Part shown: positions 3,001 to 20,389 of the stretch, piece by piece
How positions within the stretch are numbered: the stretch's first letter is position 1
Layout of the letters: each line of letters begins with the position of its first letter
Translations under genes and position numbers: made by a program
Virus record (IMG/VR): IMGVR_UViG_3300017708_001709
Coordinates: 1-20,389 of that record
DNA from: a virus
Strand: one strand, 5' to 3'
Length of the DNA stretch: 20,389 bases
The notes under the pieces: model-generated
The model's database searches: none
What the model was told of the DNA's origin: nothing
Seen by the model: only the letters and a program-made list of their open reading frames with translations

Positions 3001-4639
3001 TGATTACTTGCTCACCAATTAAAAATCTTCCCGAAGTCTGAGTAAGACTATAATCATTGGTTGCAATAACCGAAACATACCCTGTAGCACCACTAGACAA
3101 ACCTCTAATATACGAAGTAACAGGTACGTCACCAGTGGTATATGCGTTTGCTAAAGTTAATTTTGTATATGTTTGAATATCATAGAGATATAAATCCCAA
3201 TTAGTTGATCCATCTTTATAAGAATCATCTGTCACACCCCACCAATAAACTCTTGCCTCACCAACCTTAGTTGATAATCCGGCACCAGATGCATTAGCAG
3301 TGTTGGTATTGCCTGATGCATTTCTCCTTTCGGAGTATAATTCAATAATATTAGTGTTGGTAGTATTTGCACCACCTGCTGCAGCGTCACCAATATTTAA
3401 ATATGGTGTTCCATTGACATTATTTACTCTTACTAAGCTTCCAAGAGCAAATGGAATTAGCGCACCACCTACTGTTTTAGTAGTTCTTGGTTTTTCTACA
3501 TCAATTATACTAGAACCAACAAGATCAATATCATATCCTTTAACGTAGGCAGTGCCAGCAGACACTCTAACGCCCATTAAATTGTCGCTAGGTGTATTCC
3601 CCTCATCCGTTACTTCGTCCTCTCTGAAGAGACCTCCGTTGCCAGTCTCATTGTTTAAAGTGTCAACAACATCTACAATAAAACTATCAACAGCATAATT
3701 ACCAGATTCTTCGTAAGTTCTCTTTGCAAAGTAATCTCTAATTAAATTATAATTTGATTTATTCTGTAACTTTTTAATTTCACCTTCATCAATTCTTACT
3801 AACTCAACAAAACTAGTGTCTTCGTTATCAGTGAGTTGTTTTTTAGTTAATTTAAGTTGAATTTTTAATCTATCTGCACCTGGTGCAGCATAGTTAGTAA
3901 AACCTTTTGCATTATCATTTAGTTTTGGATCTTGATCTGCATTTACAATTTCCTCAATAATATCATATCCAACTCTGAAAGATGGTTTATTGTCAAAGGG
4001 GTCAAGAACAATCTGTGCGTTTGGAACATCAACAAAAGTTCCTCTAATAAAATATACACCTTCTGCTACACCGACAGAATAACCGGTATTTGTCGAATTT
4101 ACTGAATTAACTGTGAAGACAGTATCGCCAGAGACAATAGAAGTATTTCCATACGTTATATTCTCTTGAAGGATTAGTGTCTCACCATCTTCAAACTCAA
4201 AACTTGTACCATCAACGCCACCATCTTGATACTTAACAAATAGTGTAATTTCTTCAACACCTTCTTCGGGGGGAAGTAAATATCCTTTAATTGTTCCGAC
4301 AATCTCCGAATTTTCTCCCTTTACCTTGGATCCCTTACCGTTATTTGCATTTACAACAGCATCCAAATATACTGTAATATCAATTCCTAAGTGGTCTCCA
4401 TTAACCTTAACCGTAGTAAAGGCATTATCACAAGTGATTCCTCCAGGAATCACCATGGAACCCTCTTTGAACATATGACTGCCAAAGGATTCTATCTGAT
4501 TTTGCAGAATCGATTGAAGACCTGATAATTCTCTAGCCTGAACAGGGTACCCCGGTTTAAACAGAACTTTGTAAAAATTATCTGCCTTATCAAAATCATC
4601 ATAATAAGGACTTACGTTTAAATTCGTCTTTTGTGGCAT
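2..4639 (-). CDS. DUF4815-type large virion (baseplate/tail) protein, 3'-truncated by window edge
   Basis: This is an open frame of 1546 codons from ATG at 4639 to the left edge; no stop was found on reading every codon, so the C-terminus lies outside. The N-terminus (residues 12-66: YYDDFD, FKPGYPVQARELSGLQSILQ, IESFGSHMFKEG) has the pattern of the DUF4815 family of phage structural proteins. Later family-like blocks are DKGHRHQFCDYSRI (from residue 956), a heptad-rich stretch MRDIGKLEDRIENLEE (about 1130-1160, probably coiled coil), NPFNVIVFVGG (about 1275) and ADPWMRSRNVFF followed by GLRP (about 1381-1400). Residues 1333-1366 form a Lys/Thr-rich basic tract. The gene starts 3 bases after gp8 stops and sits where T4 has genes 9 and 10, so a role at the wedge periphery or fibre connection is inferred. 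I see no clear similarity to T4 gp9 or gp10. The ribosome site is weak (GGA at about 4651-4653, inside gp8). Confidence 0.88.
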   Translation of the reverse strand, partial: MPQKTNLNVSPYYDDFDKADNFYKVLFKPGYPVQARELSGLQSILQNQIESFGSHMFKEGSMVIPGGITCDNAFTTVKVNGDHLGIDITVYLDAVVNANNGKGSKVKGENSEIVGTIKGYLLPPEEGVEEITLFVKYQDGGVDGTSFEFEDGETLILQENITYGNTSIVSGDTVFTVNSVNSTNTGYSVGVAEGVYFIRGTFVDVPNAQIVLDPFDNKPSFRVGYDIIEEIVNADQDPKLNDNAKGFTNYAAPGADRLKIQLKLTKKQLTDNEDTSFVELVRIDEGEIKKLQNKSNYNLIRDYFAKRTYEESGNYAVDSFIVDVVDTLNNETGNGGLFREDEVTDEGNTPSDNLMGVRVSAGTAYVKGYDIDLVGSSIIDVEKPRTTKTVGGALIPFALGSLVRVNNVNGTPYLNIGDAAAGGANTTNTNIIELYSERRNASGNTNTANASGAGLSTKVGEARVYWWGVTDDSYKDGSTNWDLYLYDIQTYTKLTLANAYTTGDVPVTSYIRGLSSGATGYVSVIATNDYSLTQTSGRFLIGEQVIINENPKFKTGITGMAIYDTSDIKSVFQDSSGLNSALLTTFVADTVLYEQELERFGVKDQLVISGSNTGKVSGRNFQDGEGGIKLGSIIKYQTGGDPNFNVVNAIRADGSAVTLGAAPTAVGGVNKSSVDNGQYNFSLMVPRIRQYGSNGLYATMPVENTATVDLANADLTITKQITGKSVTSNSLTLEVADAVDVSAGITSVFFESFDAERYTITDNNGSPIALNSGNFTLGANGNSVTFSGLANGAVTVQATLKKRGVTNKTKDFARSNKVSIVKTIGATSTVGLTTSKFYGTRIEDAEISLNVPDVVNVRAIYESTNTAAPVLDKLTFATGLSLDQNAIIGEKIVGKDSRAVAQVVNTTANSIDYVKLNTNNFSVGESVKFKNSAIESVIQEITPGSYSDRTANYRLDKGHRHQFCDYSRIIRRKGSAVPSKQLLIIFDSYKVGSNNTGDIFTVNSYSQDRFTSDIPTLPNGLRCSDLLDFRPRVKEFDPSTNASPFAFSIRQYEYNYKYVVSPDETSFLGYSYYLPRIDLVSINRLGEIEVVKGEPADTPQAPVLTDDAMEVAQILLPPYLYSATKDPKILLRDNRRFTMRDIGKLEDRIENLEEVTSLSLLELSTKTLDVTDANGLSRFKSGFIVSDFRDKSLMDPRLSTVDISKEGAMCIAPVDFWSMAAELALDPGIDVATTDLSQNLKLLDPNIQKTGDLLTLKYEEVDWLNQPHATNVENVNPFNVIVFVGGVVLDPASDNWVRTIYIDDHRTESTGANWKQEATVTRDVDKKTEYVTYKKGGGRGEKKKRAFTTTTITTKTKFKPKLKGPSREFNYVEDVKISGEADPWMRSRNVFFAANGLRPYSKHYLYLDSQQVDIIPKVCEIEMQSGTFRIYEHADVFDSTGRKIGVMRIQKPNHKFGDKSRPDIGAGLGSPAVYVEEYQVDPYDRNRPGPGDTYSPTSKLINFGVRWLANPTAPFYGYVEKGAKVVGKTSGAVCTITRAELVSDNW

Positions 4640-6232: not shown

Positions 6233-9200
6233 TTACTGAATGTAGAATGACAAGTTGTTATCAGCTTCCAGACTTACACCATCAGCGCGTGGTTTTCTGG
6301 AACGTATTGCTCCAGTTTTGCCTTCACCAAAGTTTCCTCTCCTTTGGATAGTTGGGAAGGTTGATAATCCTGCATCAACAGTCAAACCAGTGACTCCAAT
6401 AGAAATTCCATTACTTCTATTGTCATAGTTATATATTCTTCCCCAAGAAAGTTTTCCAAGAGAAGTTGTTAATCCTGCCTGAAGATCATCAAAAGTGCCG
6501 CTTTCGAGTATTCCAATTACAGGACTACCAGAATCAATATTACAAATAATTTCGGCATTTGATGCAAGACTTGTTATTGAGTTGACAACATAAACGTTAT
6601 CAAGGAATGTCGTACCAATACCAACAATTGCAGAATCGCCACTATTTACGGAAGTAACTCCATTACCAACTGTGGTATCGTAAATCATGATAGGATATCC
6701 TGCTACCAAATCTAGTGCATCAGAAGCAACATTTGCTTCACCATTTTCGCCATAATCTTTCATTGCGCGGAAGTTAAACTTCAATGCAAGTGGGTGTCCA
6801 CCTGTACCGGTTGTTGTACTGATTCCAGTAATAATTCCACTAAATCCTTGAACATTTTGAACTGTATTGATAGTTTCATATAGGGGTGTGGGAAGTTCTG
6901 CAATAATTCTTGGTGGATTTGTATTTGTATATCCAAATCCAGGATTGATAACTGTAACTGAAGAAACTTGACCATTTGAAATGGTGGCAGTTGCGGTTGC
7001 AGTGGTTCCAATACCAACACCTATTTCTTTAGGTGCTGAGAACTTAATATCAATTGTAGAAGTTGTATATCCAAATCCAACATTGTCAATGGTTACTGCG
7101 GAGACAGTACCTGCAATGGAAACTGTGGAAGTAAACGCTGCAGAAACTGGTTCATTTGAAGTTTCCATCATAAATGCATCGAATGTAAATGTATTCTGAT
7201 TAAGATCCAGAATAATTTCATCATAATCAAAGAATTGTGCATTATCTACAAAGATATCACTTGAAGTTGGAGTAACATCACCAATAATTTTTGCAGTTGG
7301 GAAGATCTTAGTTTCTAATACCGGTCTTACCTTACTAACAATATCACCCTTCACATAGATATCTTTCTTCTGTTTAATCCAATCAAATGGTCTGAAGTTA
7401 GTATCATCAACACCTGGACCACTATAGATGTTAGTTTCTACAATGTCGGATCCTACAATTTCTGTGATTGCCCTATCGTTAATTTGACTTTGAGATGTTG
7501 AAATTAGTGGTTGTCTCAACATTCTTACATCATCACCAATCTTCAGAGTCTCAGTGGTTTCTACCTGAAGAACATCAACACCATCTTGACCAATGTAGAA
7601 GAAAATATCAACTTTATCATTTACCTTAGGTGCTTCCATAAACAAGAATGAAGTTCCACCAGTAAACTGATACGAATAACCAGGTGTTTGCAATACACCA
7701 TTAATGAAGATGACAAGAACTGAGTCAAGATCAATATTTGCAGAAAGAGGGTTATTTGGATCTAATTCAAAACTTAGGAGTTCACCATTATAATAAAGTG
7801 GGAATCTCTTTCTAGTTCCATTTTGATAACCAAAGATGCTATCAATATAGTCCATTTCACCAAAAGACCAAGAAGAGAATCTATCAGTAAATGTTTCAAC
7901 AACTTCAAGTTGGAAAGGTGCTATTGGTTGAGTATAATCTTTTGCTGTTACAAGACCAACAGCTTCAAGAATATCACCAGGTTTAAATGCATATCCAGAC
8001 CTTGCAATTTTGAAACTATCAATTAAGAATAGTGTAGATCCAATACCAACATTACTTGTTCCTGCTGCACCAACAGTAAGATTCAGCAAGAGGTTTCTAC
8101 CAGTTTCAGTTGTTGCGCCAATACCAAGTCTAGAGACACCAACAACTTCTACATTCTCATAGTTTGGTTCGGGAATAATCAATGCTGGATTGATGTATCC
8201 CTGACCAGGATTTGTGATTGAGAATGCTAAGGTTCCGCCAATACCAACGGTTGCATCAACTACGGCACCAGTTCCACTGCCACCAGCAGATCCAACACCA
8301 ACACTGATTGTATTAGTGGTGAATGATGTAATTCCTAGAGTTGCTCCTGCAGCAGGATCAGTTGATCTTGGATATGGTTGCTCAGTAAAGAAGTCATCAT
8401 CCGAGCAACTAAAGATTAAACCATCTGTTGCAATCTGAATGGTATCTGTAGTATCCAAACCATGACTTGGAATAGTAAGTCTCAATACACCTGTATGAGA
8501 AGTGTAATCTGCTTTAGTTGGTGTAAATGGTCCGCCATTACTTGCAGTAACACTATTATTTACAGATCTAATAAACTTATGTTCGTATGCTAGATCTGTA
8601 ATACCGATAGAAACTGGTTCTCTATATCCAGATCCAAAATTATTGGTAAAGTATCTTCTAACAGTCCCGCCAGTCTCATAAGTATGTGGAATTGTAGATG
8701 GACCCACTCTGATTGAAACTTTGGTTGCAGAAATTACCTGGACAACATCAACAGGATAATCATAATCTGGGAAGATGGTTGTTGTGCCATATCCAGTGCT
8801 ACCACAACTAAATTCTAGATTATTAAGTTTTACAAGATCTCCACCTAAAATATTGTGAGAATCGTTGGTTTCAATTTCAAGGATTCCTGTTATATTATTA
8901 TAAAGTGCGGTAGAAATAGCAACTGTAGAACCGACTGTATTGATACCAATGAGATCTGTAAGTTGACCTGTAGAATTCTTCAGAACTTTAATTTCTGCGC
9001 CAAGTAAAGGTGCATATCCAAGACCAGGAGTAGAACCTAAGGAAACGATCAGACCGCCTCTTGGGAGTTGATTTTGATTAATATCAAAATCGGATTGAAT
9101 AAATGATCCATCTACAGAAGTGATGCCTGTGTAAATTACACTAGTGACTCCTACTGTAGCATCATTATCAATTTCATAGTTATTTCCTGCATTATTTTCG

Positions 9201-12200
9201 GTTGTAGGAGTTTGGAATACCCCATTAATAAACAGAATACCGTTACCAGCATCAATACCCGTCGTATCTGCACCACCAACTTTCAATGTAAATGTCTTAC
9301 CAATTCCAGTAAAAGAATCTGAAATATCATCAAATACCATATTGGTGTCATAATCAGATCTTAGGAAAGTTCTTCCAGAGAATTGTGCAGTTACATATGG
9401 AAGATTGCTTTCGTTTCTTCTTGCTCTATTATTGCCTTTTGGTGGATCAATAAAGTGAACTTCATTTCCAACAATATTGAGAGCACCTCTATAGATTTGA
9501 ACGGTTGATCCGTCAATGTGAGATGTCGCTGCAGATCCAACAGCACCCCTCTGTACAGAGACTGTTGGGAATGTTGCAGCAACACCAGCAGCAATAAGAC
9601 CGTTAATGGGACCAAGAACTTGACCACCAATATTTGTACTAAGACCAACTTCAACAACCTTCATATACTCATCATCAACTCTCAGAAGATCTCTTGGTTG
9701 AACAGAAGAAATACCAGTAATATTAAATGTTGAAATACCTACAGAAATTCCTCCACTATTAAAATCAAGTTTGTGATTAATTGGGGTAAATGTTATTGGT
9801 TGTTGTACAATACCGTCAATAGCGATGACAGTTTTGCTCAACTTCTTAGTAAATTCTAATTCATGAGCATTTCCGATTCCTGCATCAGTGAAGGTAACGG
9901 ATATACCTGCAGTAGCGAACTGTGGTGTTGTTGATAATTTAAATGTATCTGGAGTTAGGGCAATTGGATAAACTCTATCTGGTAGTTTATCTGTTACAAT
10001 ACCAAGATGGTTTACAGTTGCACCAATTCCCATTGGTTGTGTTCCAATGCCAATAAAGGTCGAAGTTGGTCTATAAATCAATTCTTCTCCAGTATTAAAG
10101 AAATGATCTCTTAATGTGAATACACCTGTTGAATAATTAATATCAACAGTATTTGTGGGGTCAAATGTCTTCACATAAATTGGTTTACCTTCATGAGTTA
10201 GTGTAAAGTTAGTTCTATTTGCTCTCAAACCATTAAGTCCATCAAATGCAGAGAGGAATACCAACTGTTCAGTTGGACCATATGAAAGTGAATTTGCTTG
10301 ATTATCAAAGTCCATCTCTCTATAGAAGACTTCACTAAATGCTTGTGCCTCTATATCGTATCCCAAATCTGGATAGAAATTAAGATAGAATTCATTACCA
10401 CTAATCTCTCCACCAAATGTACCAAGACCAGTAACATTATTAACTGGTGCAAATGGTCCAGGAGTGACAGTAACTTCACTAGTTCTCGAATTTGAAAGAA
10501 TATTGACTTGATGAATTGCTGATGTTGTTCCAGCAGAAACACGAACGATTGCTGCCGCTGCAGAAATGAATCTGCTATCAAAAGTTCCAACTCTTACTAT
10601 ATCAGTACCAAATCCAATAGTCGATTCTAATCTTGCACTTCTTTCTGTTCCTGCAGGTTGATTATTGAGAAGGAATCTATATGTTCCAATTCCAGTTGTT
10701 GTATTACCAAATCCAACAATATGTGTTCTGTAGTCAAAAGCATCAACCTGATCAAAGTTACGACCACGTACAGAAACAATACCTGAATTAGCATCGTAAA
10801 TTGCACTTACAAGTCCAACATTTGATGCACTATATGACTGTGTAGTATGATCAAAATAATATTCACTTACATAAGTATCAGTTCCATCAAAATCAATTGT
10901 AGCTTCGACATAGTTAGTTTCTCCACTAAATCTATTTGAAATCTCAATATTTGCAAATAATCCATTGAAATTATTATCATTGAATTCTGCAAGTGTTCCA
11001 ATATCATTACCACCGGATACACTAGAAAGACCGACAAAGGAACTGATAAGATTTACAGAACCAATTGCTTGAGTACCAATACCCGAGTTTCCAGGAGGAA
11101 GTGCTTGGAAAAGATATGATTTTTTGAGGATTTTGATATCATGATCTGTTTCAAAAGCATCTGTTGGAGTAAAAATGAGAGTTTTTCTTCCAAAACTATC
11201 AATATTTGCACTAAAGTCTCCAAGTTTGGTAGATGTAAATGAACTGTACTTCTCAAATACAAAAATATCATTGGTAGTTGATTGAACAACTAATTCGGAT
11301 AATTGAACATCTTTACTATCTGGATCGGCAATTTGTATTACATACCTTACATGGTTTTCTACAAAATCTATTTCTTCAATTTCAACGAAAGTATCTTTAA
11401 ATCCTCTACTAGAAAATTTATTACTAATATCATCATGAATGAGAACTCTATTAGTTCTACACTCAATATAATCTGTTAATTTTCTATTTTGAATCTGTAG
11501 AGCATTTGACTGCGTAAGACCTGTAACAGGACTTACTCTTGGATCAACATCTACTGCATTATCGAAGTTATTGATAATATCAACTCTTCTTTCATTAACT
11601 ACATCAAGAATTACGATTGCTGTAGTTGTTCCACCAAGACCAATACTACTCCTACCAATAGAAGTTACACCAACATCCGCAAAGTTCTTGAGACCTGCTG
11701 GGTGAACAATACTGTTTACTGGGGTAGATAGTTCATCCCAGGTTATGGGACTCTTAATTGAGTATGAAAGATTCTGATAATAGTCATTATTAGGAGTTAC
11801 TTGATAATCCTCACTAATTTTGCCAATATCATCACTCCAACCAAGTTCCATTCTTGAGGAGTAGTCAACTACAAATTTTGCTCTCTTTCTATCAATATTA
11901 GTTACTTGTGCAATTACGCCACTAATAATTCCTTTGACAATATCACCTTTTTTGAGATCATATCTTCCAGTATACTTAATATAATCATCTCTTACTAGAG
12001 AAATAAACACATCTTCAGAACGGAATCCATTGCCATCACTATTAACAAATAGTCGTTCATTCTTAACAAATGTTCCCCTATTTTGTTTAATATCAATGCG
12101 TGGATAGATGTTTTCATTGATAAGAGTTGCATATCCTGATTGATATGTCTTGGCAATACCTGCATTGGTTGTAAGACCTACACCTGAGGCATCAATTAAT

Positions 12201-15200
12201 TGGAAAGTCAACGTTGCTGGACTAGTGTTTGCAAACTGTATTACTTTGAATAATTGATAGTCGTAGTCACTAGAATTAAATCCTGATCCATCTGGAGAGG
12301 ACATTTCAATACCCTCAACAAATACTCTATCATCAACAGAAAATGGTGCTTGATTGTATCCAAGAATTGGTGTTTTAAGTACACAAGTTGCAATTCCAGT
12401 TGGTCCACTAACCATCGAAACGATACCGACACCATTTGAGTTATTGATTGTAATAATTTTATGTGGTTCAGAATCTAATCCAAATATTGGTGCCAATTGA
12501 ATGATTTCGGAAATAGATCCATTAGGCGCTTTTGCAACAAGAGTTGTTGTATTAACAATACTCTTAGTTGTATCATTCCAGAGGATAACATCTGGATCGG
12601 CAAGATATTTTGCACCGGCAAACTTAATATCAATTTCTTGAATCGTGTCTAAATTATCAACAGTGACAATTGGTGGTACAAATGCTTCTGGTCTAAGAGT
12701 TTTATCTGAAGGATAATCATATCCAATATCACGAAGTCTACTCTTTTTGATTCTACCAATAGAAGTGGATATTCCAACAATGTTGGCATTTATACCATTA
12801 GCAGATGTGACACCTTCAAATGTAGGGAGTTTGTCAAAATTAAATCCTTCTGAAATAACTCTTACTTTAGAAATACTTCCATTAAGTGCATTTGAAGATT
12901 TAGTATTATATTCTAAAATGTCACATTCATCATTACTGTATGATAATATATTTGGATACCTAAATGGTGAAATTTTAAACTCTGTTGTTGATGATGTTGT
13001 TGAAATCCCAAATACAGAGTACGTTCCATTATATTCACTATTTTCATATCTAATTTCTGAATATGCTTTGACTTCAGTATCCGCAGTGCTGATGTATCCA
13101 CCCTTTTCTAAACCATAATAAAGTCTTGATGGAATATTATTAGAGTAATTTAAAGTCAGTGAAGAATCGGAATCAGTACCAAAACCAACACTACCAAGAC
13201 CAACTACATTGAAGTCTCTGGAATCTCCGGAACTGATGTATTCATTAGTGAAATTCTTGTCTCTGTAAATCTTTAATTGATATCCTCTGAGTGAAGTATC
13301 CTGAAGGTTGAACTTCAAGTCACTATTTCTTACAACATCAATTGGTGGATTGATAGCAGAAATGTAATGATTAACACCACCAGTTGCACTAATACTTACT
13401 CCACTTTCTGTTTTTGGATTAGATTCATATAAAGTTTCTGCAAGTCTAAACTCATCGACACTATCCTGAATTATATAATAAATTCCAGTTGTTATACCAG
13501 AAGCAACTTCCGCTGCTTCATAGAATACTTTATCACCAGTTTTATATCCATGATCTTGATAGGTAAATGATCCGTTAGAGAGACTAATACCTGTCGAATT
13601 GATACCAATTGTATTGACAAGAATTTTCTTCTCATCTAAATTCAATTTTATATTCAATGCTCCAGTTGTTCCAAAACCAACAACAGTATTTGGGACTACA
13701 TTTAGTTTGATAACGTCTTTATTCAGTAGACCATGAGTTGACGAAGTACTAACAATAGTTGTAATTCTATCAACATTTCCAAGAATTTGTTCGTTATTAG
13801 TTTCTAAAAGATACTCTGAATTATTAGATCCATCACTATAGAAGAACAATCCTTCAGATGCAGTGGTTAAACCAACTTGCGTTGTTAATCCAATGAGATT
13901 TTCGCCTTTGTTTATAACAAATACTTCACTTGATAATGTATTTGTATCTGGAATAAAGAATGTCCCTTGGTTAAGCGAATTATTCCCCACAATAAGAGAA
14001 TCTACGCCAGCAAGAGTGCTCTTAGTAAATGTAATTCTTTCTCCGGTTCTTAATCCATGATTAGGGATATAAATTGCTCTGCACGGGACAGAAACGCTAG
14101 ATGTAGTGACTCCAACTGTTCTTACTTTCTTTTGAGCTCCACCTGCAGTAGTTCCAACACCAACTGATGTTACTGCATTGAAATAAATTAGTTTATTTCT
14201 CTCGGAATCAAACTTTGTAGTTTTTACTGGAAGTCTGACTCTATCAGAACTCAAACTAAGATCACTTCCGAAGGAGTGTGCTACACCAGTAGATCCAAAT
14301 CTCTTAACAGTAAGTACACCGTTTGAATAGTCATTGAGAACTCTTACAGTCTCATTACCATCGGAGGATGTAATTGTTATAGAATTGCCAATCGATACTT
14401 CTCTAAATCTTCTAGAAACGAAAATATCCTCAAATTTACCACCAGGAAGACCTGAATAACTGGTCATTGTTCCTGCAAGACCAACAGACTCTGTAGTAAA
14501 TCCTATTCTCTTAGATCCACTAAGGAATGGCACAGAGGTCGAAAGACTGCCGACAAGAACGGTATCGTTATTATTTAAATCATATCCATTGCGATTGTAA
14601 GCAGAAACTTGATTGTCATTATCCCAAACAAGTACACAGTTTACATTTCTTTCCAATTCAGTTCTAATAGAAGATATACCAGCACCTTTCAATTCTTGAA
14701 CTTCTCCTCTAAGACCAGCACCACCTGTATTTTCAAAATTAAAGTTAACCCTATCACCAATAGAGTAACCAACTCCACCATCAATGACTCTAATTTCATC
14801 AACAGCACCCTTTGTAACTGATTCTACATTAGAACGTTGTTGGAAAGTTTCATAAGATTCATTGATAAAGTCATAATCTGCATGTGGATCACCGACTTTA
14901 TATGGGAAAGTATTTCTAACAAGATTATTTCCATTAAAATCAAATGTTTGATCTAAAATTAGATTTTCACCTATTACTTGCGATTTAAATTTATTTCCAA
15001 CAAAATATGGATATGCTGGTGCAAATTTTGCAGAGTTTTGCCCACTGGTTGTAACTCCAACAAAGTATGCATAAACTCCATTTGGAAACTCTGGAGTTTT
15101 ACAGAATCTACCATTGTGTAAATCTAGATCACCACTATTAGTATATAAGTAATCTTCTTTGAAGAATCCTGGTTCAAAAGTAGGTGGTCTATTAACAATA

Positions 15201-18200
15201 GAATTGGTGCTTAATTCATACCCAGTTTCAAGTCTAGCAACACCTGACTGAACATTATCTGCCGTTTGATATCCAAAGGGACCATAAATTGGATTTCCGT
15301 CATATGCCCATCCAATAATGGGTGAGTGAGATCCATTTAAAGATTCAAAGTTTGATGCAAGGTCTTCGGAGTATCCATATATTCCATAAACCAAAGAATC
15401 CTGCTTCTCATCCTTATAAAGACTAGAATAGATTTCTGGATTTCTTGTTGCAGAAATTTTTCCAAATCTAAACGCATCGTTTACTGTTAAATCTCTAACT
15501 CTCGTATCGAAAATTGCACCAGATCCTCTAGAATCTACAAATAGTGAGGTAGAAGATGTGCTATACCCAATACCTGGATTAATGACAATAACATCATCAA
15601 TCTTTCCATTTAAAAGTACGGGTCTGAGAATTGCACCTACTCCACCAGAAGGATCTTCAATTTTAAGTTCTGGGATTGAATTATATTCAGATCCTTTATT
15701 CAATACTTGAACATCAACAATTCTTCCATTAGAAATAATTGGGGCAAGTTGAGAATTCTTACCTTTACTTATTGAAATTCTTGGTTTTGTATGTAAATTA
15801 AATACGGTAGATCCATATCCAGTTCCAGATTCATACAAATAGGCATCAGTAATCTCACCAGTTACAATTGGTGTAAAGGTAAAGGTTCCAATACCAGATG
15901 CTCCAAAAGAAACATTAGCATTAACTTTAATCTCTGGATATTGAAAAATATGGTAACCACTTCCAATAGAATCAAATTTACTAAACTTTGATTTTTCAAG
16001 ATCATCAGCAAATGTTCCAGCAATGCCAACATTTACAAGTCTAAATTGATCTGAATCTACAAGTTGAATAGAATAACTATTTAAAGTAGAGAGACCAACA
16101 ATAGGATTACCTGTTGATTTATATGTAACTATTTCTCCAGTCTTAAATCCATGATTATTAAAGTATACTGAATTATACTCTGTAGAAATACCACTAGATT
16201 TTACTCTTAATTTTCTGTGAGCATAACCAGATCCACTATTAAGAACAGTAATAGATCTTACATTTTTTTGCGATAGAGTTCTAAATTTATGAATACCGGA
16301 TGCTGATGTAGCAGCTGAAAGACCAATAGTATTGATACCAGTACTTACAGTGGTAATACCTGATGCAGAAGGTGCAAATGCATCATTATCATTTTTAAAT
16401 AATCTAATAGTTGAAGTATTTACAATTCTAATTACATATTCATCACCACTACTCAAACCTCCTGTTGAGATATTATTTGGATCATATGCTTGTCCAATCT
16501 CAATAGGATTATTACCATTTTGATTGTAGATAATATGATCACCATCTGCAAGATTATGTGCCTTTATAAATGTAATGGTTTCATTACTGGGATCAATTCC
16601 GCCACCAACATCTAATCTGCGACTGTCAAAAGATATCTCTCTAAATCTTGTTCCAATAACTGGTTCCAAAGAGCAACCAGATCCATTACCACCTACTAAA
16701 TCCAGAGATAAGAATTCATCAAATCCGAATTCTTGAGGGTCAACAATAACTTCCTTAACACTACCAATAATAACTGGCTCAACCTTTGCACCAGTTCCAT
16801 CAGGAAGACCAGATCTTGCTGCAATATCAGCAATATTTAATTCAGGTGGATTTATAATATCATATCCTTTACCACCATTAAGAACTTCAAATTCTTCTAT
16901 AGGTCCATAATAAATTTTATCCGTGGAATCGGGACTTACAATCTCTACACCATCAATCAATACTCCAACATTACTTACAGTCCTATCAACACTTTTACTA
17001 CCTTGTAGTTGCTGTGATAATGGAAACTTTCTAAGAATTTTTTTACTTGAAAGAGTTCTATTTTCATGTCTCTTTAAAGTAAAATTATGTGCCCCAACAC
17101 CAAAGTTTGGATTAAATCTAACAATATCATCAAAGTTTGCCTCAGTTTTAGCATTATTGGCAAGTTGAGACTTTGAAGGGTATAATTTAATTTCGTTTGC
17201 AGCAACAAGTTTTACATAATAACTTTCTCCAGATGAAAGTCCAATTAAAGGACTTTCTGCAGTGTAAACTATTTCATCACCATCTCTAAAATTAACTGGT
17301 GTTGAAAATACAATAGTTTCATAAACCTTATAATAAGGACTATAACCACCCAATCCTTGAGTATTGTTTGAACCTAATGTTTTAATATATCCATCTGGAA
17401 GTATAGATTCAACAATATCATCTTTTATAGTGTATCCTGGAAGGGAATTTGATGCCAAATATCCAAAGATTGCAGAATCATCTACGTAGATATTAGATGT
17501 ATTTGCAAGGTATACTTCATTACCTACAGTAAGAACTACTCCAGAACTCTTTGCCTTTACAATCTTTCGTCTAATACTATAATCCTTATTAGGATCTGGT
17601 ATAAAAGATCCAATATTAGATAGAGTAACTTCTTTAGTTAATGTGTTTATTGAAGATACTGTTGCAAATGATGCATTAGTAACATTTGGATCAGGTACAA
17701 CTACCTGTTGACTATTGCCAATGAGAACCTCAACAGAATCTCCTAGTTTAAGGTATGCCTTATCAATATCAGAAAACAGTGTGAATACTGAAGAATTTAC
17801 TTCTTCTACCTTAAATCTTGGGCTGGTATTATAAACCCAAGAATTGGCAAACATTTCCTTATAGGTCCTATCAACGATAGGATTCTCAATAACCTCTCCA
17901 ACATTTTTTGTGGTTATCTCCTCACCTTCTTCCATCAAAGGGATATCTACCAAAGGTTTTAATTCTGATAGAACTCCAGTGATTCTCATATCACATCTAT
18001 TCTCAATATCACCATCCTCATAACCAAAAATGGTTTCATCTGCCCTTATAATATCAGAGAGATTAATCTTTGATGTGATACCAGTACAACCATAAAACTG
18101 ATTAATACTCTTTGAAGTATAATCAATTCTATTGTTTCCAGAAATAACAGTCCCTGTTTGACCAAATCCAATTGTAGAGTCGACACTAATTACAGACGCA

Positions 18201-19177
18201 TTTACTTCAACTGGTTCTAATGATCTAGATGCTCCAGGAATAGTAAAAATACCCTCTACAAGGTCTCTATCATTATATCCAACAAAGACACCAAGTTTAT
18301 AAAAAGTTTTAGTGTCTCTTGTAAAAATCTCAACATCAGAAACTGATGCATTTGTATCGAGATCATTTGACTTAAATATTGTCTGACCTTCTAACCCAAA
18401 AGGATTACCAGAAATATTTTCTGCTACAATAATTTCTCTTCTGATATATTCGGCAGAAGATGGTTTAATTAGTCTACTTTCAAGATCTAATACTTCAGCA
18501 TGAACACCATAGAGAACTTTGAAAAGAATTCTAATAGATTCTGCAATACCCTTTGATTGATAAAAGTTCCTTGCATGCTTGATAAAGTTTCCAACATCTA
18601 AATCAGAAACAAAATCATACTCTTCTAGTCCTGGAGTAAAGGTTTTTTTTAATTTTTTATAAAATTCTTGTAAGAAAATAACACTTAAGTTCTTGACTAC
18701 TGATCCATTGGCCGCGGCGGATGCAGAAGTTTCACTAAAAATAATATTTTGACTGTTTACATTGCTGAAAATATTGGAAATTCCCGTGTCATATCCAGAA
18801 ATTCCACTAAATCCACGAACACAACTGGTGAAAGAAGTGTCAGTCTTTGATTTATAGGTAATAATTTCATCACCAATTTGTAAAAGACCATACTCATCAG
18901 GAAATCCTTTCGTAGAAGTTACCTGAATAGTATCTTGAGAAGATGTAATATCTCCTGTAAGAGATGTCTCACCTACAACAACCTCTGGAACGAGATTATC
19001 TACTCTGATATATCGATCAAGATTATCTACAAGATCTACACTACCGCCCTGATGTTCTAAAGACAAATAATATTGTCTAAAAAATTCTATAGCGTTTGGA
19101 AAATCAGCAACTAAAAACTCTGGAAGTTGGCTCTCAATAATTTTATTGAGTTGCACTCTCTTCTCAAATTGCGACAT
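6233..19177 (-). CDS. gp7: Giant gp7-like baseplate wedge / virion structural protein (4314 aa)
   Basis: This uninterrupted 12.9-kb frame lies between gp6 and gp8, the place of T4 gene 7 (1032 aa). Residues 1-270 form a helical N-terminal block. FYQSKGIAESIRILFKVLYG (205-224) and LEGQTI (262-267) match T4 gp7 FYSTKGIEASYKFLFKVLYN and LVGQTI. A second gp7-type block, with YYQNLSYSIKSP (from 2466) and HPAG (2492-2495), matches T4 YYVMKIKS and HPVG, which in T4 lie close after the first. Between them are about 2,200 residues of beta-rich Gly/Ser/Thr/Asn repeats and a YHYH-like domain (1284-1395); about 1,700 residues of further repeats follow. No signal peptide or membrane segment is apparent. 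The start is supported by AGAGAGG at 19187-19193 and by conservation; the gene begins 3 bases after gp6 stops. The wedge role is inferred; part of the protein may instead form a tail or baseplate appendage. Confidence 0.85.
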   Translation of the reverse strand: MSQFEKRVQLNKIIESQLPEFLVADFPNAIEFFRQYYLSLEHQGGSVDLVDNLDRYIRVDNLVPEVVVGETSLTGDITSSQDTIQVTSTKGFPDEYGLLQIGDEIITYKSKTDTSFTSCVRGFSGISGYDTGISNIFSNVNSQNIIFSETSASAAANGSVVKNLSVIFLQEFYKKLKKTFTPGLEEYDFVSDLDVGNFIKHARNFYQSKGIAESIRILFKVLYGVHAEVLDLESRLIKPSSAEYIRREIIVAENISGNPFGLEGQTIFKSNDLDTNASVSDVEIFTRDTKTFYKLGVFVGYNDRDLVEGIFTIPGASRSLEPVEVNASVISVDSTIGFGQTGTVISGNNRIDYTSKSINQFYGCTGITSKINLSDIIRADETIFGYEDGDIENRCDMRITGVLSELKPLVDIPLMEEGEEITTKNVGEVIENPIVDRTYKEMFANSWVYNTSPRFKVEEVNSSVFTLFSDIDKAYLKLGDSVEVLIGNSQQVVVPDPNVTNASFATVSSINTLTKEVTLSNIGSFIPDPNKDYSIRRKIVKAKSSGVVLTVGNEVYLANTSNIYVDDSAIFGYLASNSLPGYTIKDDIVESILPDGYIKTLGSNNTQGLGGYSPYYKVYETIVFSTPVNFRDGDEIVYTAESPLIGLSSGESYYVKLVAANEIKLYPSKSQLANNAKTEANFDDIVRFNPNFGVGAHNFTLKRHENRTLSSKKILRKFPLSQQLQGSKSVDRTVSNVGVLIDGVEIVSPDSTDKIYYGPIEEFEVLNGGKGYDIINPPELNIADIAARSGLPDGTGAKVEPVIIGSVKEVIVDPQEFGFDEFLSLDLVGGNGSGCSLEPVIGTRFREISFDSRRLDVGGGIDPSNETITFIKAHNLADGDHIIYNQNGNNPIEIGQAYDPNNISTGGLSSGDEYVIRIVNTSTIRLFKNDNDAFAPSASGITTVSTGINTIGLSAATSASGIHKFRTLSQKNVRSITVLNSGSGYAHRKLRVKSSGISTEYNSVYFNNHGFKTGEIVTYKSTGNPIVGLSTLNSYSIQLVDSDQFRLVNVGIAGTFADDLEKSKFSKFDSIGSGYHIFQYPEIKVNANVSFGASGIGTFTFTPIVTGEITDAYLYESGTGYGSTVFNLHTKPRISISKGKNSQLAPIISNGRIVDVQVLNKGSEYNSIPELKIEDPSGGVGAILRPVLLNGKIDDVIVINPGIGYSTSSTSLFVDSRGSGAIFDTRVRDLTVNDAFRFGKISATRNPEIYSSLYKDEKQDSLVYGIYGYSEDLASNFESLNGSHSPIIGWAYDGNPIYGPFGYQTADNVQSGVARLETGYELSTNSIVNRPPTFEPGFFKEDYLYTNSGDLDLHNGRFCKTPEFPNGVYAYFVGVTTSGQNSAKFAPAYPYFVGNKFKSQVIGENLILDQTFDFNGNNLVRNTFPYKVGDPHADYDFINESYETFQQRSNVESVTKGAVDEIRVIDGGVGYSIGDRVNFNFENTGGAGLRGEVQELKGAGISSIRTELERNVNCVLVWDNDNQVSAYNRNGYDLNNNDTVLVGSLSTSVPFLSGSKRIGFTTESVGLAGTMTSYSGLPGGKFEDIFVSRRFREVSIGNSITITSSDGNETVRVLNDYSNGVLTVKRFGSTGVAHSFGSDLSLSSDRVRLPVKTTKFDSERNKLIYFNAVTSVGVGTTAGGAQKKVRTVGVTTSSVSVPCRAIYIPNHGLRTGERITFTKSTLAGVDSLIVGNNSLNQGTFFIPDTNTLSSEVFVINKGENLIGLTTQVGLTTASEGLFFYSDGSNNSEYLLETNNEQILGNVDRITTIVSTSSTHGLLNKDVIKLNVVPNTVVGFGTTGALNIKLNLDEKKILVNTIGINSTGISLSNGSFTYQDHGYKTGDKVFYEAAEVASGITTGIYYIIQDSVDEFRLAETLYESNPKTESGVSISATGGVNHYISAINPPIDVVRNSDLKFNLQDTSLRGYQLKIYRDKNFTNEYISSGDSRDFNVVGLGSVGFGTDSDSSLTLNYSNNIPSRLYYGLEKGGYISTADTEVKAYSEIRYENSEYNGTYSVFGISTTSSTTEFKISPFRYPNILSYSNDECDILEYNTKSSNALNGSISKVRVISEGFNFDKLPTFEGVTSANGINANIVGISTSIGRIKKSRLRDIGYDYPSDKTLRPEAFVPPIVTVDNLDTIQEIDIKFAGAKYLADPDVILWNDTTKSIVNTTTLVAKAPNGSISEIIQLAPIFGLDSEPHKIITINNSNGVGIVSMVSGPTGIATCVLKTPILGYNQAPFSVDDRVFVEGIEMSSPDGSGFNSSDYDYQLFKVIQFANTSPATLTFQLIDASGVGLTTNAGIAKTYQSGYATLINENIYPRIDIKQNRGTFVKNERLFVNSDGNGFRSEDVFISLVRDDYIKYTGRYDLKKGDIVKGIISGVIAQVTNIDRKRAKFVVDYSSRMELGWSDDIGKISEDYQVTPNNDYYQNLSYSIKSPITWDELSTPVNSIVHPAGLKNFADVGVTSIGRSSIGLGGTTTAIVILDVVNERRVDIINNFDNAVDVDPRVSPVTGLTQSNALQIQNRKLTDYIECRTNRVLIHDDISNKFSSRGFKDTFVEIEEIDFVENHVRYVIQIADPDSKDVQLSELVVQSTTNDIFVFEKYSSFTSTKLGDFSANIDSFGRKTLIFTPTDAFETDHDIKILKKSYLFQALPPGNSGIGTQAIGSVNLISSFVGLSSVSGGNDIGTLAEFNDNNFNGLFANIEISNRFSGETNYVEATIDFDGTDTYVSEYYFDHTTQSYSASNVGLVSAIYDANSGIVSVRGRNFDQVDAFDYRTHIVGFGNTTTGIGTYRFLLNNQPAGTERSARLESTIGFGTDIVRVGTFDSRFISAAAAIVRVSAGTTSAIHQVNILSNSRTSEVTVTPGPFAPVNNVTGLGTFGGEISGNEFYLNFYPDLGYDIEAQAFSEVFYREMDFDNQANSLSYGPTEQLVFLSAFDGLNGLRANRTNFTLTHEGKPIYVKTFDPTNTVDINYSTGVFTLRDHFFNTGEELIYRPTSTFIGIGTQPMGIGATVNHLGIVTDKLPDRVYPIALTPDTFKLSTTPQFATAGISVTFTDAGIGNAHELEFTKKLSKTVIAIDGIVQQPITFTPINHKLDFNSGGISVGISTFNITGISSVQPRDLLRVDDEYMKVVEVGLSTNIGGQVLGPINGLIAAGVAATFPTVSVQRGAVGSAATSHIDGSTVQIYRGALNIVGNEVHFIDPPKGNNRARRNESNLPYVTAQFSGRTFLRSDYDTNMVFDDISDSFTGIGKTFTLKVGGADTTGIDAGNGILFINGVFQTPTTENNAGNNYEIDNDATVGVTSVIYTGITSVDGSFIQSDFDINQNQLPRGGLIVSLGSTPGLGYAPLLGAEIKVLKNSTGQLTDLIGINTVGSTVAISTALYNNITGILEIETNDSHNILGGDLVKLNNLEFSCGSTGYGTTTIFPDYDYPVDVVQVISATKVSIRVGPSTIPHTYETGGTVRRYFTNNFGSGYREPVSIGITDLAYEHKFIRSVNNSVTASNGGPFTPTKADYTSHTGVLRLTIPSHGLDTTDTIQIATDGLIFSCSDDDFFTEQPYPRSTDPAAGATLGITSFTTNTISVGVGSAGGSGTGAVVDATVGIGGTLAFSITNPGQGYINPALIIPEPNYENVEVVGVSRLGIGATTETGRNLLLNLTVGAAGTSNVGIGSTLFLIDSFKIARSGYAFKPGDILEAVGLVTAKDYTQPIAPFQLEVVETFTDRFSSWSFGEMDYIDSIFGYQNGTRKRFPLYYNGELLSFELDPNNPLSANIDLDSVLVIFINGVLQTPGYSYQFTGGTSFLFMEAPKVNDKVDIFFYIGQDGVDVLQVETTETLKIGDDVRMLRQPLISTSQSQINDRAITEIVGSDIVETNIYSGPGVDDTNFRPFDWIKQKKDIYVKGDIVSKVRPVLETKIFPTAKIIGDVTPTSSDIFVDNAQFFDYDEIILDLNQNTFTFDAFMMETSNEPVSAAFTSTVSIAGTVSAVTIDNVGFGYTTSTIDIKFSAPKEIGVGIGTTATATATISNGQVSSVTVINPGFGYTNTNPPRIIAELPTPLYETINTVQNVQGFSGIITGISTTTGTGGHPLALKFNFRAMKDYGENGEANVASDALDLVAGYPIMIYDTTVGNGVTSVNSGDSAIVGIGTTFLDNVYVVNSITSLASNAEIICNIDSGSPVIGILESGTFDDLQAGLTTSLGKLSWGRIYNYDNRSNGISIGVTGLTVDAGLSTFPTIQRRGNFGEGKTGAIRSRKPRADGVSLEADNNLSFYIQ
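6920..7072 (-). repeat. Tandem GxGY beta repeats, two units (giant protein 4034-4083)
   Basis: Two units, GFGYTTSTIDIKF (from 4034) and GFGYTNTNPPRI (from 4080), lie 46 residues apart and are joined by SNGQVSSVTVINP. Isolated units of the same kind occur in the giant protein at GKGY 769-772, GSGY 982-985, GVGY 1468-1471 and GQGY 3658-3661, and one occurs in gp8 at 230-233. Confidence 0.7.
7682..9817 (-). repeat. Three dispersed [ND]G[VI]xQxP modules in the C-terminal third of the giant protein
   Basis: DGIVQQP (3121-3127), NGVFQTP (3318-3324) and NGVLQTP (3826-3832) are each preceded by a hydrophobic strand and followed by a strand with Phe/Tyr/Asn, as in YSYQFTGGTSFLFMEAP after the last copy. 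I know this motif as a recurring module of tail and structural proteins in marine T4-like phages. No exact DNA repetition was seen, so the copies are old. Confidence 0.6.
11408..11830 (-). other. gp7 core, second half (about residues 2450-2590 of the giant protein)
   Basis: YYQNLSYSIKSP (from 2466), ITWDELSTPVNSIVHPAG (ending 2495) and LKNFADV resemble T4 gp7 YYVMKIKS, SRWKSDVIRFVHPVGF and the residues that follow. Further on, LTDYIECRTNRVLIHDDIS (about 2566-2586) is of a type I recognise from other marine T4-like tail proteins. In T4 the equivalent HPVG motif is only about 120 residues after LVGQTI; here the gap is about 2,225 residues. Confidence 0.68.
14993..15328 (-). other. Degenerate YHYH-type domain (residues 1284-1395 of the giant protein)
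   Basis: HSPIIGWAYDGNPIYGPFGY (1284-1303) is the hallmark first motif of YHYH-family proteins (bacterial forms read like GYAFDGFPIYGPYGY). It is followed in family order by DLHNGRFCKTPEFPNGVYAYF (1352-1372) and APAYPYFVG (1386-1394). The name-giving YHYH position reads YAYF here, so both its His position and the final Tyr/His are replaced. Function in this family is unknown; in a phage tail it may be a binding or purely structural module. Confidence 0.75.
15560..15840 (-). repeat. Tandem GxGY beta repeats, three units (giant protein 1118-1205)
   Basis: Three units follow one another at about 40-44 residue spacing: GTGY (1118-1121), GSEY (1162-1165, Gly replaced by Glu) and GIGY (1202-1205). 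Each is preceded by a strand of the V-x-V-x-N-x-G kind and followed by P-x-L/I-x-I and a G-x-G-A turn. This is a protein-level repeat; I did not see long exact DNA repeats. Confidence 0.7.
18368..19177 (-). other. gp7 core, first half (residues 1-270 of the giant protein)
   Basis: The opening helices (LPEFLVADFPNAIEFFRQYY, residues 18-37) have the look of the FEAFCEAYIQYL region of T4 gp7. They lead to FYQSKGIAESIRILFKVLYG (205-224) and, after about 40 residues, LEGQTI (262-267), with the same order and spacing as in T4 gp7. A beta insert with IQVTSTKGFP, LLQIGDEIITY and CVRGFSGI sits at about 80-130 and is absent from T4 gp7 as I recall it. Confidence 0.8.
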
Positions 19178-19180
19178 ATT

Positions 19181-20389
19181 TTATTTCCTCTCTAGATCTC
19201 CGTTGGAATAACTTGAAGTATAATAGTCTCTTGTGAAAGACACGCCAGAAATATCTTCACCAGATGCAATAACATCTTTAACCATATTTATTGTACTACT
19301 TGAAACGCCAAAACTGAGGTAAAGGTCTTTTAAACCAACCACATCATTGGATTCTGGGAAAGCCTGAATCTCAACAATATTATTTGGTCTTTCAGTTTCA
19401 ACAATATTGATAGTATTGAGAATAACTTCCCCCTTCATATAATCAACTACACCCGCTTCTTTGGCAACAACAGTTTTTATTCCATTAGCGCCAATCTTAA
19501 CTATGGAAACAACTCCACTCTTAAGGTCTGCATTTGGTAGATCTGTGATATACACCGTTGAAGTATCACCAACAATTTTAAATCCTGTAGATTTAATATT
19601 CAGTCCATTTGGTTTGACATTAAATCTATTGCCAAAGCAAATTTCGTATTGAGCAAACTGATTAACCAATGCCTTCATATCTCTTCTAATTTTCACCTTA
19701 GTGATATTAGAAGTAATTGCAGTATCAACACGATCAATTAGTTGAAGAACCTTACTATACTTAAATCTTCCACCAAAACGATTCATATCAACGTCTTTAG
19801 AGTATTTTGTAAGACTATCAATAATATTAGTCCTTAAACCATCAACAGTAGCAACCTGTGAGGAGTTATAATAGATATTAGATTCAATTTCAACATAAAG
19901 AACCTTAAGATCAATAATTTTTTGATTAATACCTGCAATTGAGTATTGCTTGATCTTATTCAGAATATTTCTTTTATCAAAATCGGAGACATATGTGCCA
20001 TTTTTGGGTTTTATGCTAATTTGAACGGTACCAAACTGTGGTGGTACTAATTCTTCACCACCAACAACTGCAACAGACTCGGTATTTGGATAAACTGAAG
20101 CAATAATTGCCTCATAATCTCTTGATGTAACCGCTCTGTATTGCGCTGAGTACAGTCTTGGGGCGAAATACTTAATAGAAGACACATCTTCAATTCTACC
20201 ACCATTCATCGCCTTCTGAATGGTTATAACAGGCACTGACCCACTAGGAATTACTCTCTCACCTTTCTGATCTTGAAGATTTGCTTGAAATTCAAAGACG
20301 GAAGGTCCATTTCCTGCTTCACCATCAGTAACAATGTAACTTACGGAGATAAGTTTGCCATTTTCCAACTTTTTACCAAAATATCCATC
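19181..20389 (-). CDS. gp6: Baseplate wedge protein gp6 homologue, C-terminal 402 residues (5' end outside window)
   Basis: The frame is open to the right edge, beginning DGYFGKKLENGKLISVSYIV, the FGKK-L-xxG pattern of baseplate-J/gp6 proteins. Next comes YFAPRLYSAQYRAVTSRDYE (residues 74-93 counted from the edge) and then VYPNTESVAVVGGEE, typical of gp6, where the baseplate-J core ends and the C-terminal domain begins. T4 gp6 is 660 aa and forms the dimer ring that links wedges around the hub; about 250 residues are therefore expected upstream of this window. A TTG at 20368 could be mistaken for a start, but it is an internal Leu codon in the conserved region. The stop codon is 3 bases before the gp7-like ATG. 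Confidence 0.9.
   Translation of the reverse strand, partial: DGYFGKKLENGKLISVSYIVTDGEAGNGPSVFEFQANLQDQKGERVIPSGSVPVITIQKAMNGGRIEDVSSIKYFAPRLYSAQYRAVTSRDYEAIIASVYPNTESVAVVGGEELVPPQFGTVQISIKPKNGTYVSDFDKRNILNKIKQYSIAGINQKIIDLKVLYVEIESNIYYNSSQVATVDGLRTNIIDSLTKYSKDVDMNRFGGRFKYSKVLQLIDRVDTAITSNITKVKIRRDMKALVNQFAQYEICFGNRFNVKPNGLNIKSTGFKIVGDTSTVYITDLPNADLKSGVVSIVKIGANGIKTVVAKEAGVVDYMKGEVILNTINIVETERPNNIVEIQAFPESNDVVGLKDLYLSFGVSSSTINMVKDVIASGEDISGVSFTRDYYTSSYSNGDLERK
19187..19193 (-). promoter_or_regulatory. Shine-Dalgarno site of the giant gp7-like gene
   Basis: The minus strand reads AGAGAGG, then AAATAAAAT, then ATG, giving a GAGG core 9 bases from the start codon. It is the strongest ribosome site in the window. 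It overlaps the last codons of gp6, which fits translational coupling across the 3-base gap. Confidence 0.75.
19285..19292 (-). promoter_or_regulatory. Possible late promoter (AATAAATA) inside gp6, upstream of the giant gene
   Basis: The minus strand reads AATAAATA within the gp6 coding region, 107 bases before the ATG of the gp7-like gene. It has one mismatch to the T4 late consensus. Support is the position, parallel to the similar motif 98 bases before the DUF4815 gene; chance occurrence in AT-rich coding DNA is the alternative. Confidence 0.33.

Follow-up and report, generated by a model that had tools for sequence, protein, structure and literature searches.

A giant gp7-type baseplate wedge protein whose T4-like core is divided by a long internal run

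The window analysed here is an IMG/VR record of 20,389 bases, a metagenomic contig, and most of it is taken up by one long reading frame that stands between genes for gp6 and gp8, with a VrlC-type gene beyond (Table 1). A preliminary description of this DNA had proposed the gene order 6-7-8 and a single polypeptide of roughly 450 kDa; the order is borne out by gp6 (PHROG 219) and gp8 (Phage-Gp8) on either side of the 4314-aa frame, and the single giant reading frame stands, with its predicted mass corrected to 467 kDa. Two Pfam Gp6 domains were also matched in the 19181-20389 frame, both under their cut-offs. The slot of the VrlC-type gene carries the label VrlC or VriC in four of the compared loci (L003, L005, L007 and L012, the last being HTVC008M). 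NCBIfam returned no match for any of the four window proteins, phage records contained no near-identical DNA when queried with 7,768 bases, and a whole-protein sequence search of the PDB gave a single irrelevant match (E 0.19). The window gp6 lies nearest to P-SSM2 gp6 in a 34-row gp6 tree (67% identity; sister at 99/96), so that, judged by this sequence, the DNA most likely comes from a myovirus infecting Prochlorococcus or Synechococcus.

Among the annotated genomes, gp7 is labelled between gp6 and gp8 in P-SSM2, S-CAM7, ACG-2014f, S-SM2 and T4, and the gene that follows the gp7-slot protein bears a label other than gp8 in S-RIM2, pf16 and IME-SM1. A gp9/10-type protein (E 1.4e-12) comes directly after the 6,378-aa gp7 of S-RIM2 (L010, 20295-21527), unlike P-SSM2, S-CAM7, ACG-2014f and S-SM2, where gp8 occupies that slot. 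The window gp8 (4643-6202) has the same kind of GxGY stretch as gp7, and PHROG 460 is matched by both gp8 (E 5.2e-4) and gp7 (E 6.4e-12); a single module is perhaps common to several baseplate proteins.

Table 1. Genes of the window and parts of the gp7-type protein (residue numbers refer to that protein).
Feature	Position	Strand	Basis and remarks
VrlC-type protein, 1546 aa, 3' end off the window	2..4639	(-)	PHROG 358; DUF4815 186 bits
gp8, 519 aa	4643..6202	(-)	PHROG 438 E 1.4e-159; Pfam Phage-Gp8 54.8 bits, cut-off 25
gp7-type baseplate wedge protein, 4314 aa, 467 kDa	6233..19177	(-)	uninterrupted frame, ATG start; PHROG 2885 end to end
C-terminal extension, residues 2511-4314	6236..11647	(-)	comparison with isolates; absent from S-CREM2 and S-B68
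Block B, residues 2451-2510 (YYQNLSYSIKS...HPAG), counterpart of T4 gp7 ~865-911	11648..11827	(-)	profile matches
Putative giant run between domain V and block B, residues 413-2450	11828..17941	(-)	beta modules where modelled (to 1389); approximate boundaries
GxGY module, residues 2100-2131	12785..12880	(-)	iterative module HMM
GxGY module, residues 1457-1488	14714..14809	(-)	iterative module HMM
YHYH-family domain (YAYF), residues 1264-1376	15050..15388	(-)	Pfam PF14240 86.8 bits, cut-off 25
Two GxGY modules, residues 1151-1221	15515..15727	(-)	iterative module HMM
GxGY module, residues 758-783	16829..16906	(-)	iterative module HMM
Domain-V-like beta barrel, residues 242-412, with inner beta domain 313-381	17942..18454	(-)	structure match, model residues 53-223
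Block A helices, residues 161-241, with FYQSKGI...LFKVLYG (205-224)	18455..18697	(-)	hhalign to Straboviridae gp7; helices predicted
Putative N-terminal inserted module between two helical parts, residues 46-160	18698..19042	(-)	sequence
Putative N-terminal helices, residues 1-45, counterpart of T4 gp7 helical domain (643-689)	19043..19177	(-)	
gp6, C-terminal 402 aa, gene runs past the window edge	19181..20389	(-)	PHROG 219 E 1.5e-102; 67% identical to P-SSM2 gp6

The giant frame has many relatives. PHROG 2885, named 'baseplate wedge subunit', aligns positions 6-4178 of its 4179 with residues 4-4280 in one stretch (3768 bits), and the first 300 residues match 469 phage records (E up to 1e-3), 457 of them named as Synechococcus phage, Cyanophage or Prochlorococcus phage, 7 as Sinorhizobium phage and 5 as marine virus. 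P-SSM2 gp7 (YP_214343.1, 5195 aa) shares the slot between gp6 and gp8 and is 64.5% identical to the window protein over the first 300 residues, but its C-terminal part is ~860 residues longer; P-SSM4 gp7 reaches 7,312 aa by coordinates. The window protein is one more member of a large, already annotated giant family, and the giant form is common to the cyanophages examined.

Two motif blocks lie at residues 205-267 and 2466-2495, where the preliminary description had placed them. Block A consists of FYQSKGIAESIRILFKVLYG at residues 205-224 and LEGQTI at 262-267, and block B of YYQNLSYSIKS at 2466-2476 and HPAG at 2492-2495. In T4 gp7 (1032 aa), FYSTKGIEASYKFLFK starts at 734, LVGQTI at 781 and HPVG at 884. 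The spacing given earlier for the window (~2,225 residues) agrees with the 2,224 that we measured, whereas the ~120 residues given for T4 between LVGQTI and HPVG are in fact 97. Neither of the two motif patterns that match the real protein appears in 2,000 shuffles of it.

We compared the blocks of 54 giants (44 metagenomic, 9 isolates and the window) with six Straboviridae gp7 sequences using hhalign. Block A aligned to T4 gp7 at ~722-814 with an E of 2.6e-9, against 0.15 for reversed rows and 0.099 for gp8 rows as controls. A block A profile built without the T4 row found gp7 exactly once in each of 13 whole genomes translated in six frames, T4 at E 4.7e-9; eight of these genomes had supplied rows to the profile, and the independent ones are ACG-2014f, S-T4, S-RIM2, S-CREM2 and T4. 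The one extra match is antisense in S-RIM2 (E 0.0015). Among 177,635 PDB sequences, block A matched two gp7 sequences (4.4e-6 for T4 gp7, and 7.6e-6), and the next entry followed at 0.077. When a model without T4 was run on 313 entries (the frames of 19 loci, gp7 among them, plus 6 reversed rows), all 6 Straboviridae gp7 ranked straight after the family itself. By its sequence, block A is clearly gp7.

The evidence for block B points the same way at lower strength. It aligned to T4 gp7 864-889 with an E of 0.0033 and a probability of 10% (controls: reversed 0.41, gp8 0.22), and its profile found gp7 in 13 of 13 six-frame genomes, T4 gp7 at E 0.0021 in the right place and order. Seven of the 13 had supplied rows and six, T4 among them, are independent; the one extra match is a stop-broken stretch of S-SRM01 (E 0.045). 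In the PDB, gp7 ranks first but at E 0.14. Within the 313 entries the block B model recovered all six Straboviridae gp7, four of which come next after one internal module match, and two of which fall among decoys (Aeh1 0.068, nt-1 0.16). We regard the homology of block B to T4 gp7 as moderately supported by these profiles, and as weaker than that of block A. The two profile comparisons with T4 gp7 suggested in the preliminary description thus gave a strong match for block A, by hhalign and in whole genomes and the PDB alike, and a weaker one, at the right place, for block B.

A separate gp7 gene elsewhere in the genome would speak against this assignment, and searches of 12 complete relatives with the block A, block B and T4 gp7 profiles found none. 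Of 12 genomes other than T4, the T4 gp7 family profile hit this gene alone in 6 and had no hit in the remaining 6, in a search whose control matched in 1 of 14 named genomes. Models drawn narrowly around T4 do not reach the giants: the window protein matched none of PHROG 964, Pfam Gp7_helical, Gp7_5th and Gp7_6th at E up to 1, and the first 640 residues of T4 gp7 had no match in it. PF20893, tried as a gp7 family, is DUF6845 and found nothing. The window protein, with its T4-gp7-like blocks A and B, is a gp7-type wedge protein, a homology that the preliminary description had read rightly.

A family model shows where the core is divided. PF23786 (Baseplate_wedge) has a curated cut-off of 27 bits and 284 positions, in which an N part is followed by block A, reaching to ~221, and then by block B, from ~226 on. 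HTVC008M, pf16 and all six compact contigs match it in three ordered pieces within one frame, and S-CAM3 matches at 11-207 and 233-281 within one frame of 3,045 aa. The N and A pieces are found in IME-SM1 and S-SM2, block B alone in S-CREM2, and block A alone in P-SSM2, S-CAM7 and the window; ACG-2014f and T4 gave no match. Single pieces mostly fall under the cut-off, as does the window protein (16.9 bits), and the cut-off is passed by 10 of 10 compact metagenomic relatives scanned and by pf16, HTVC008M and IME-SM1. The model also matches the N termini of several relatives, but not that of the window protein. For these N-terminal helices, a compact-relative profile (26-61) aligned weakly to T4 gp7 643-678 (hhalign, E 0.024). 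That a gp7 core is split by an insertion of ~2,200 residues, as first proposed, is upheld: both blocks match T4 gp7, they are collinear, and they lie in one frame.

In T4 gp7 the place between the two blocks is taken by domain V (766-861 in Pfam), and the giant run thus enlarges a site that is already occupied in T4. In a model of a compact relative (L020 6225-8816, 864 aa; mean pLDDT 68, with ~48-69 in the core helices and 26-49 in block B), the predicted fold matches T4 gp7 765-853 with Z 8.9 over 89 residues at 2.2 Å, and Foldseek returned a gp7-length chain of a Klebsiella phage baseplate (E 1.3e-4) followed by T4 gp7 (E 2.9e-4). We also modelled residues 190-1389 of the window protein (pLDDT 84, pTM 0.69). 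The barrel at 242-412 matches T4 gp7 760-852 (Z 7.8, 90 residues, rmsd 3.8) as the fifth hit, with many unrelated barrels near Z 7, and T4 gp7 is absent from the 50 best Foldseek hits of this model. For the inner domain at 313-381 the match is a chain from a phage tail tube (Z 8.9, 69 residues, rmsd 1.9); unrelated ATPases also score near Z 7. The modelled domain V match fits, but does not prove, the order A, domain V, giant run, B. We also considered that the insert interrupts T4 domain V itself, and rejected this. In the compact model the first barrel (~245-343) seems to be whole, and a further barrel at 513-582 may account for the long range reported by the aligner; hhalign follows T4 to ~831 without opening a gap in the T4 sequence, and PF23786 has A and B adjoining.

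The length of the run between the two blocks is graded among natural relatives, which range from ~500 aa to the giants. Measured from motif to motif, the separation is 149 residues in T4, 314 in pf16, 333 in IME-SM1, 597 in HTVC008M, 1,690 in S-B68, 1,713 in S-CREM2, 1,876 in S-CAM3, 2,286 in the window and 2,304 in P-SSM2; it spans 2,230-2,304 across S-CAM7, ACG-2014f, the window, S-SM2 and P-SSM2, the values for T4 and S-CAM7 resting on a second pattern match. Metagenomic frames with both blocks number at least 193, at least 76 with 255-473 residues between the profile matches and at least 117 with 1,900-2,299. This sample came from four queries, with at least 316 frames carrying A and at least 197 carrying B among the matches listed, so the empty range from 474 to 1,900 is no proof of a gap, and S-CREM2, S-B68 and S-CAM3 fall inside it. 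Frames with one block touch a contig end, save five complete frames (340-533 aa) with A alone.

The C-terminal extension varies separately. S-CREM2 and S-B68 have the insert and end 25-27 residues after HPxG, which indicates that the extension is independent of the insert. In the gp6 tree the giants and the S-CREM2 clade group together (93/84, not starred) with S-CREM2 inside, so its missing extension may be a loss; branches are long and the deep order is unsure. The presence of domain V at the T4 junction, together with the graded relatives, suggests growth at an internal site and, separately, at the C terminus. In S-SKS1 (L014 5900-18292, NC_020851) the gp7 slot is read as overlapping separate frames of 710, 1601 and 1113 aa, a further 739-aa frame may belong to it, and ~7 kb are unannotated; the pattern reflects either sequencing errors or a real break.

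The preliminary description had called the insert modular beta repeats, which holds for it as predicted beta modules as far as the model extends (residue 1389). An iterated HMM seeded from compact relatives found eight GxGY modules in the whole window chain, six of them between A and B, where HTVC008M and IME-SM1 have three each. Anywhere in the chain, each of 59 compact relatives has 2-4 modules, and 12 giants including the window have 5-22. None was found in T4 or in pf16, even though pf16 has a separation of 314 residues. One GxGY region of the compact model (376-485) is similar in fold to gp18, the sheath protein of T4, in its domain I (Z 9.1, 73 residues). The Pfam model of gp18 domain I gave E 3.4e-5 in IME-SM1, below cut-off, and E 0.0067 in one of 10 compact relatives, and beyond these the structural likeness is on its own; it hints at outer domains common to sheath and baseplate. 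Wedge proteins of the HTVC008M type (L012 5436-8486) match PHROGs 3465, 4406, 701 and 19630, filed under head closure or head and packaging, which are probably misnamed through shared beta modules.

Residues 1264-1376 of the insert form a YHYH-family domain, whose name we take to imply the motif YHYH. That motif occurs in 0 of 93 aligned sequences, most of which have YAYF and six YAYH. Published passages link the domain to host recognition or cell-wall attack (PMC7029224, PMC7824862), and one of them proposes a metal hydrolase (PMC7824862). With YAYF in place of YHYH, such a hydrolase is probably inactive in the window protein. Over residues 190-1389 the window protein can be aligned from one end to the other with 92 metagenomic relatives of 31-95% identity. 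These were drawn from the 161 frames, out of 237, that cleared a filter on coverage and length, by which large rearrangements would have dropped out. Against eight isolates, identity is 19-46% in the insert, 27-72% in block A, 18-51% in block B and 12-51% in the C-terminal part; in all eight the insert falls below block A and lies near block B and the C-terminal part. Because many relatives are collinear with the first half of the insert, the evidence leans to a built-in scaffold more than an adhesin, with cell contact possible.

Set beside known wedge proteins, the giant chain shows both kinship and difference. T4 gp7 (PDB 5iv5, 5hx2) has both blocks and the order 6-7-8 in common with the window protein, and probably also a domain-V-type barrel between the blocks. 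It differs by ~640 extra N-terminal residues, and the window protein by its long C-terminal extension. The gp7-slot protein of HTVC008M (1016 aa) is compact, yet the phage belongs to the family Kyanoviridae like the cyanophages, and at least 65 complete compact metagenomic frames (853-1,267 aa) have A and B in order along with GxGY modules. S-CREM2 ORF122 (1937 aa) has a long A-B insert like that of the window protein but ends 25 residues after HPxG, without the C-terminal extension. By the description in part of PMC10457771, the gp7 orthologue of XM1 (gp17, 242 aa) partners two gp6-type chains, and two sets of tail spikes are anchored by an internal loop and by the C terminus; unlike the giant single chain, it is tiny and its appendages are separate spike proteins. 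Relatives are present in virions: Table 3 of PMC10665884 reports 91 unique peptides and 27.2% coverage for S-CREM2 ORF122, and Table 1 of PMC9146016 reports 71 peptides and 13.5% coverage for S-SZBM1 208 (6,619 aa), in which we located A at 663-802 and B at 3475-3669. According to a passage in PMC7029224, pelagi- and cyanomyophages lack T4 gp7, which seems to be replaced by VrlC; our results disagree with it. We found no paper on a split gp7 core in the open-licence literature; as far as that literature shows, the split-core anatomy is new.

We propose, with a probability of about 0.8, that cyanophage gp7 is a wedge scaffold that has kept its core and has grown between A and B and, separately, after B. 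T4 gp7 joins two gp6 chains into the core of the wedge, and by analogy with T4 and XM1 the cyanophage protein would do the same in its baseplate. The conserved core would be made up of a pair of N-terminal helices, the helices of block A, and block B. The site between A and B holds one barrel (domain V) in T4, and would hold the barrel and a few modules in pelagiphage-type proteins, and up to ~2,000 further residues in cyanophages. After domain V the chain would exit the core, run as a string of beta domains and return for block B, followed by a second, variable extension. A and B would still be packed together, and the insert would project outward as an outer baseplate structure, mainly as a scaffold, perhaps with binding sites.

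Several other accounts of these observations have to be weighed. The source is a 20 kb metagenomic contig, and an assembly or gene-calling error might in principle create such a frame; isolates have a comparable frame at this position in the gene order and PHROG 2885 covers it end to end, so the isolates exclude this explanation and its probability is close to nil. A subtler doubt is that gp7 homology stops at block A, the HPxG segment of block B having arisen by chance or convergence. The match of block B to T4 is weak when taken alone (hhalign probability 10%, PDB E 0.14) and two of the six Straboviridae gp7 sit among decoys in its ranking, but the whole-genome search placed it on T4 gp7 in order and in position, four of the six are its best non-family frames, and PF23786 has A and B adjoining, with both matched in relatives. 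We therefore think coincidence very improbable. Slightly less so, but still improbable, is a polyprotein cut after synthesis that would leave A and B in different subunits. The published peptide counts, as tabulated in PMC10665884 and PMC9146016, do not show an intact chain, and the S-SKS1 slot is read as overlapping separate frames; that pattern fits sequencing errors as well, A and B share one uncut frame in at least 117 metagenomic giants and in the other cyanophage isolates read, and cleavage would separate the two halves of a core found unbroken in T4.

The more serious alternative, which we consider unlikely without dismissing it, is that the insert is an appendage serving mainly to bind receptors, a fibre that arose within a wedge protein and touches the cell surface. 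It draws on the XM1 orthologue holding tail spikes by its internal loop and C terminus (as described in part of PMC10457771), on the presence in the insert of a domain associated with host recognition or cell-wall attack in passages of PMC7029224 and PMC7824862, and on insert conservation below that of block A in 8 of 8 isolates. But residues 190-1389 are collinear from end to end in the 92 metagenomic relatives, albeit these were chosen for coverage, the at least 117 metagenomic giants all have 1,900-2,299 residues between the profile matches, insert identity is near that of block B and the C-terminal part, and the YHYH motif is absent in 93 of 93 sequences. The related suggestion in the preliminary description, that the wedge protein became a scaffold on which a long appendage is built, in place of fibres from separate genes, is at most tentative, as the first half of the insert is collinear and gene content gives it no support. 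Among 14 records, the T4 gp9/10 N-domain is above cut-off in S-RIM2, T4 and Aeh1 only and GP11 in T4 and Aeh1 only. The three compact isolates likewise yielded neither, which means that lacking them does not go along with having the giant insert, and gene content lends no support to the insert as a stand-in for separate gp10/gp11-type chains.

The proposal of a scaffold grown at an internal site bears on a widespread group. Passages of PMC3037559 call T4-like myoviruses ubiquitous, with genes among the ocean's most abundant, and name gp7 under the non-cyanophage core. Knowing where the split gp7 core lies allows the cyanophage wedge to be set in correspondence with that of T4, and for structural biologists it pinpoints a known core within a chain of several hundred kDa. 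The relatives form a graded natural series of a baseplate part growing without losing its joint. As a tentative extension, about which we have more doubt than confidence, the A-B junction may be a general growth point, the copies of cyanophage gp7, one per wedge, may build much of the outer baseplate, and gp7 may belong to the universal T4-type core set. If this is true, the junction would be nearly empty in the smallest wedge model, hold one barrel in T4, a few modules in pelagiphages and two thousand residues in cyanophages; the outer baseplate would lie inside gp7 where T4 recruits gp10, gp11 and others as separate chains; and gp7 would join a universal core gene set of T4-type phages that has left it out.
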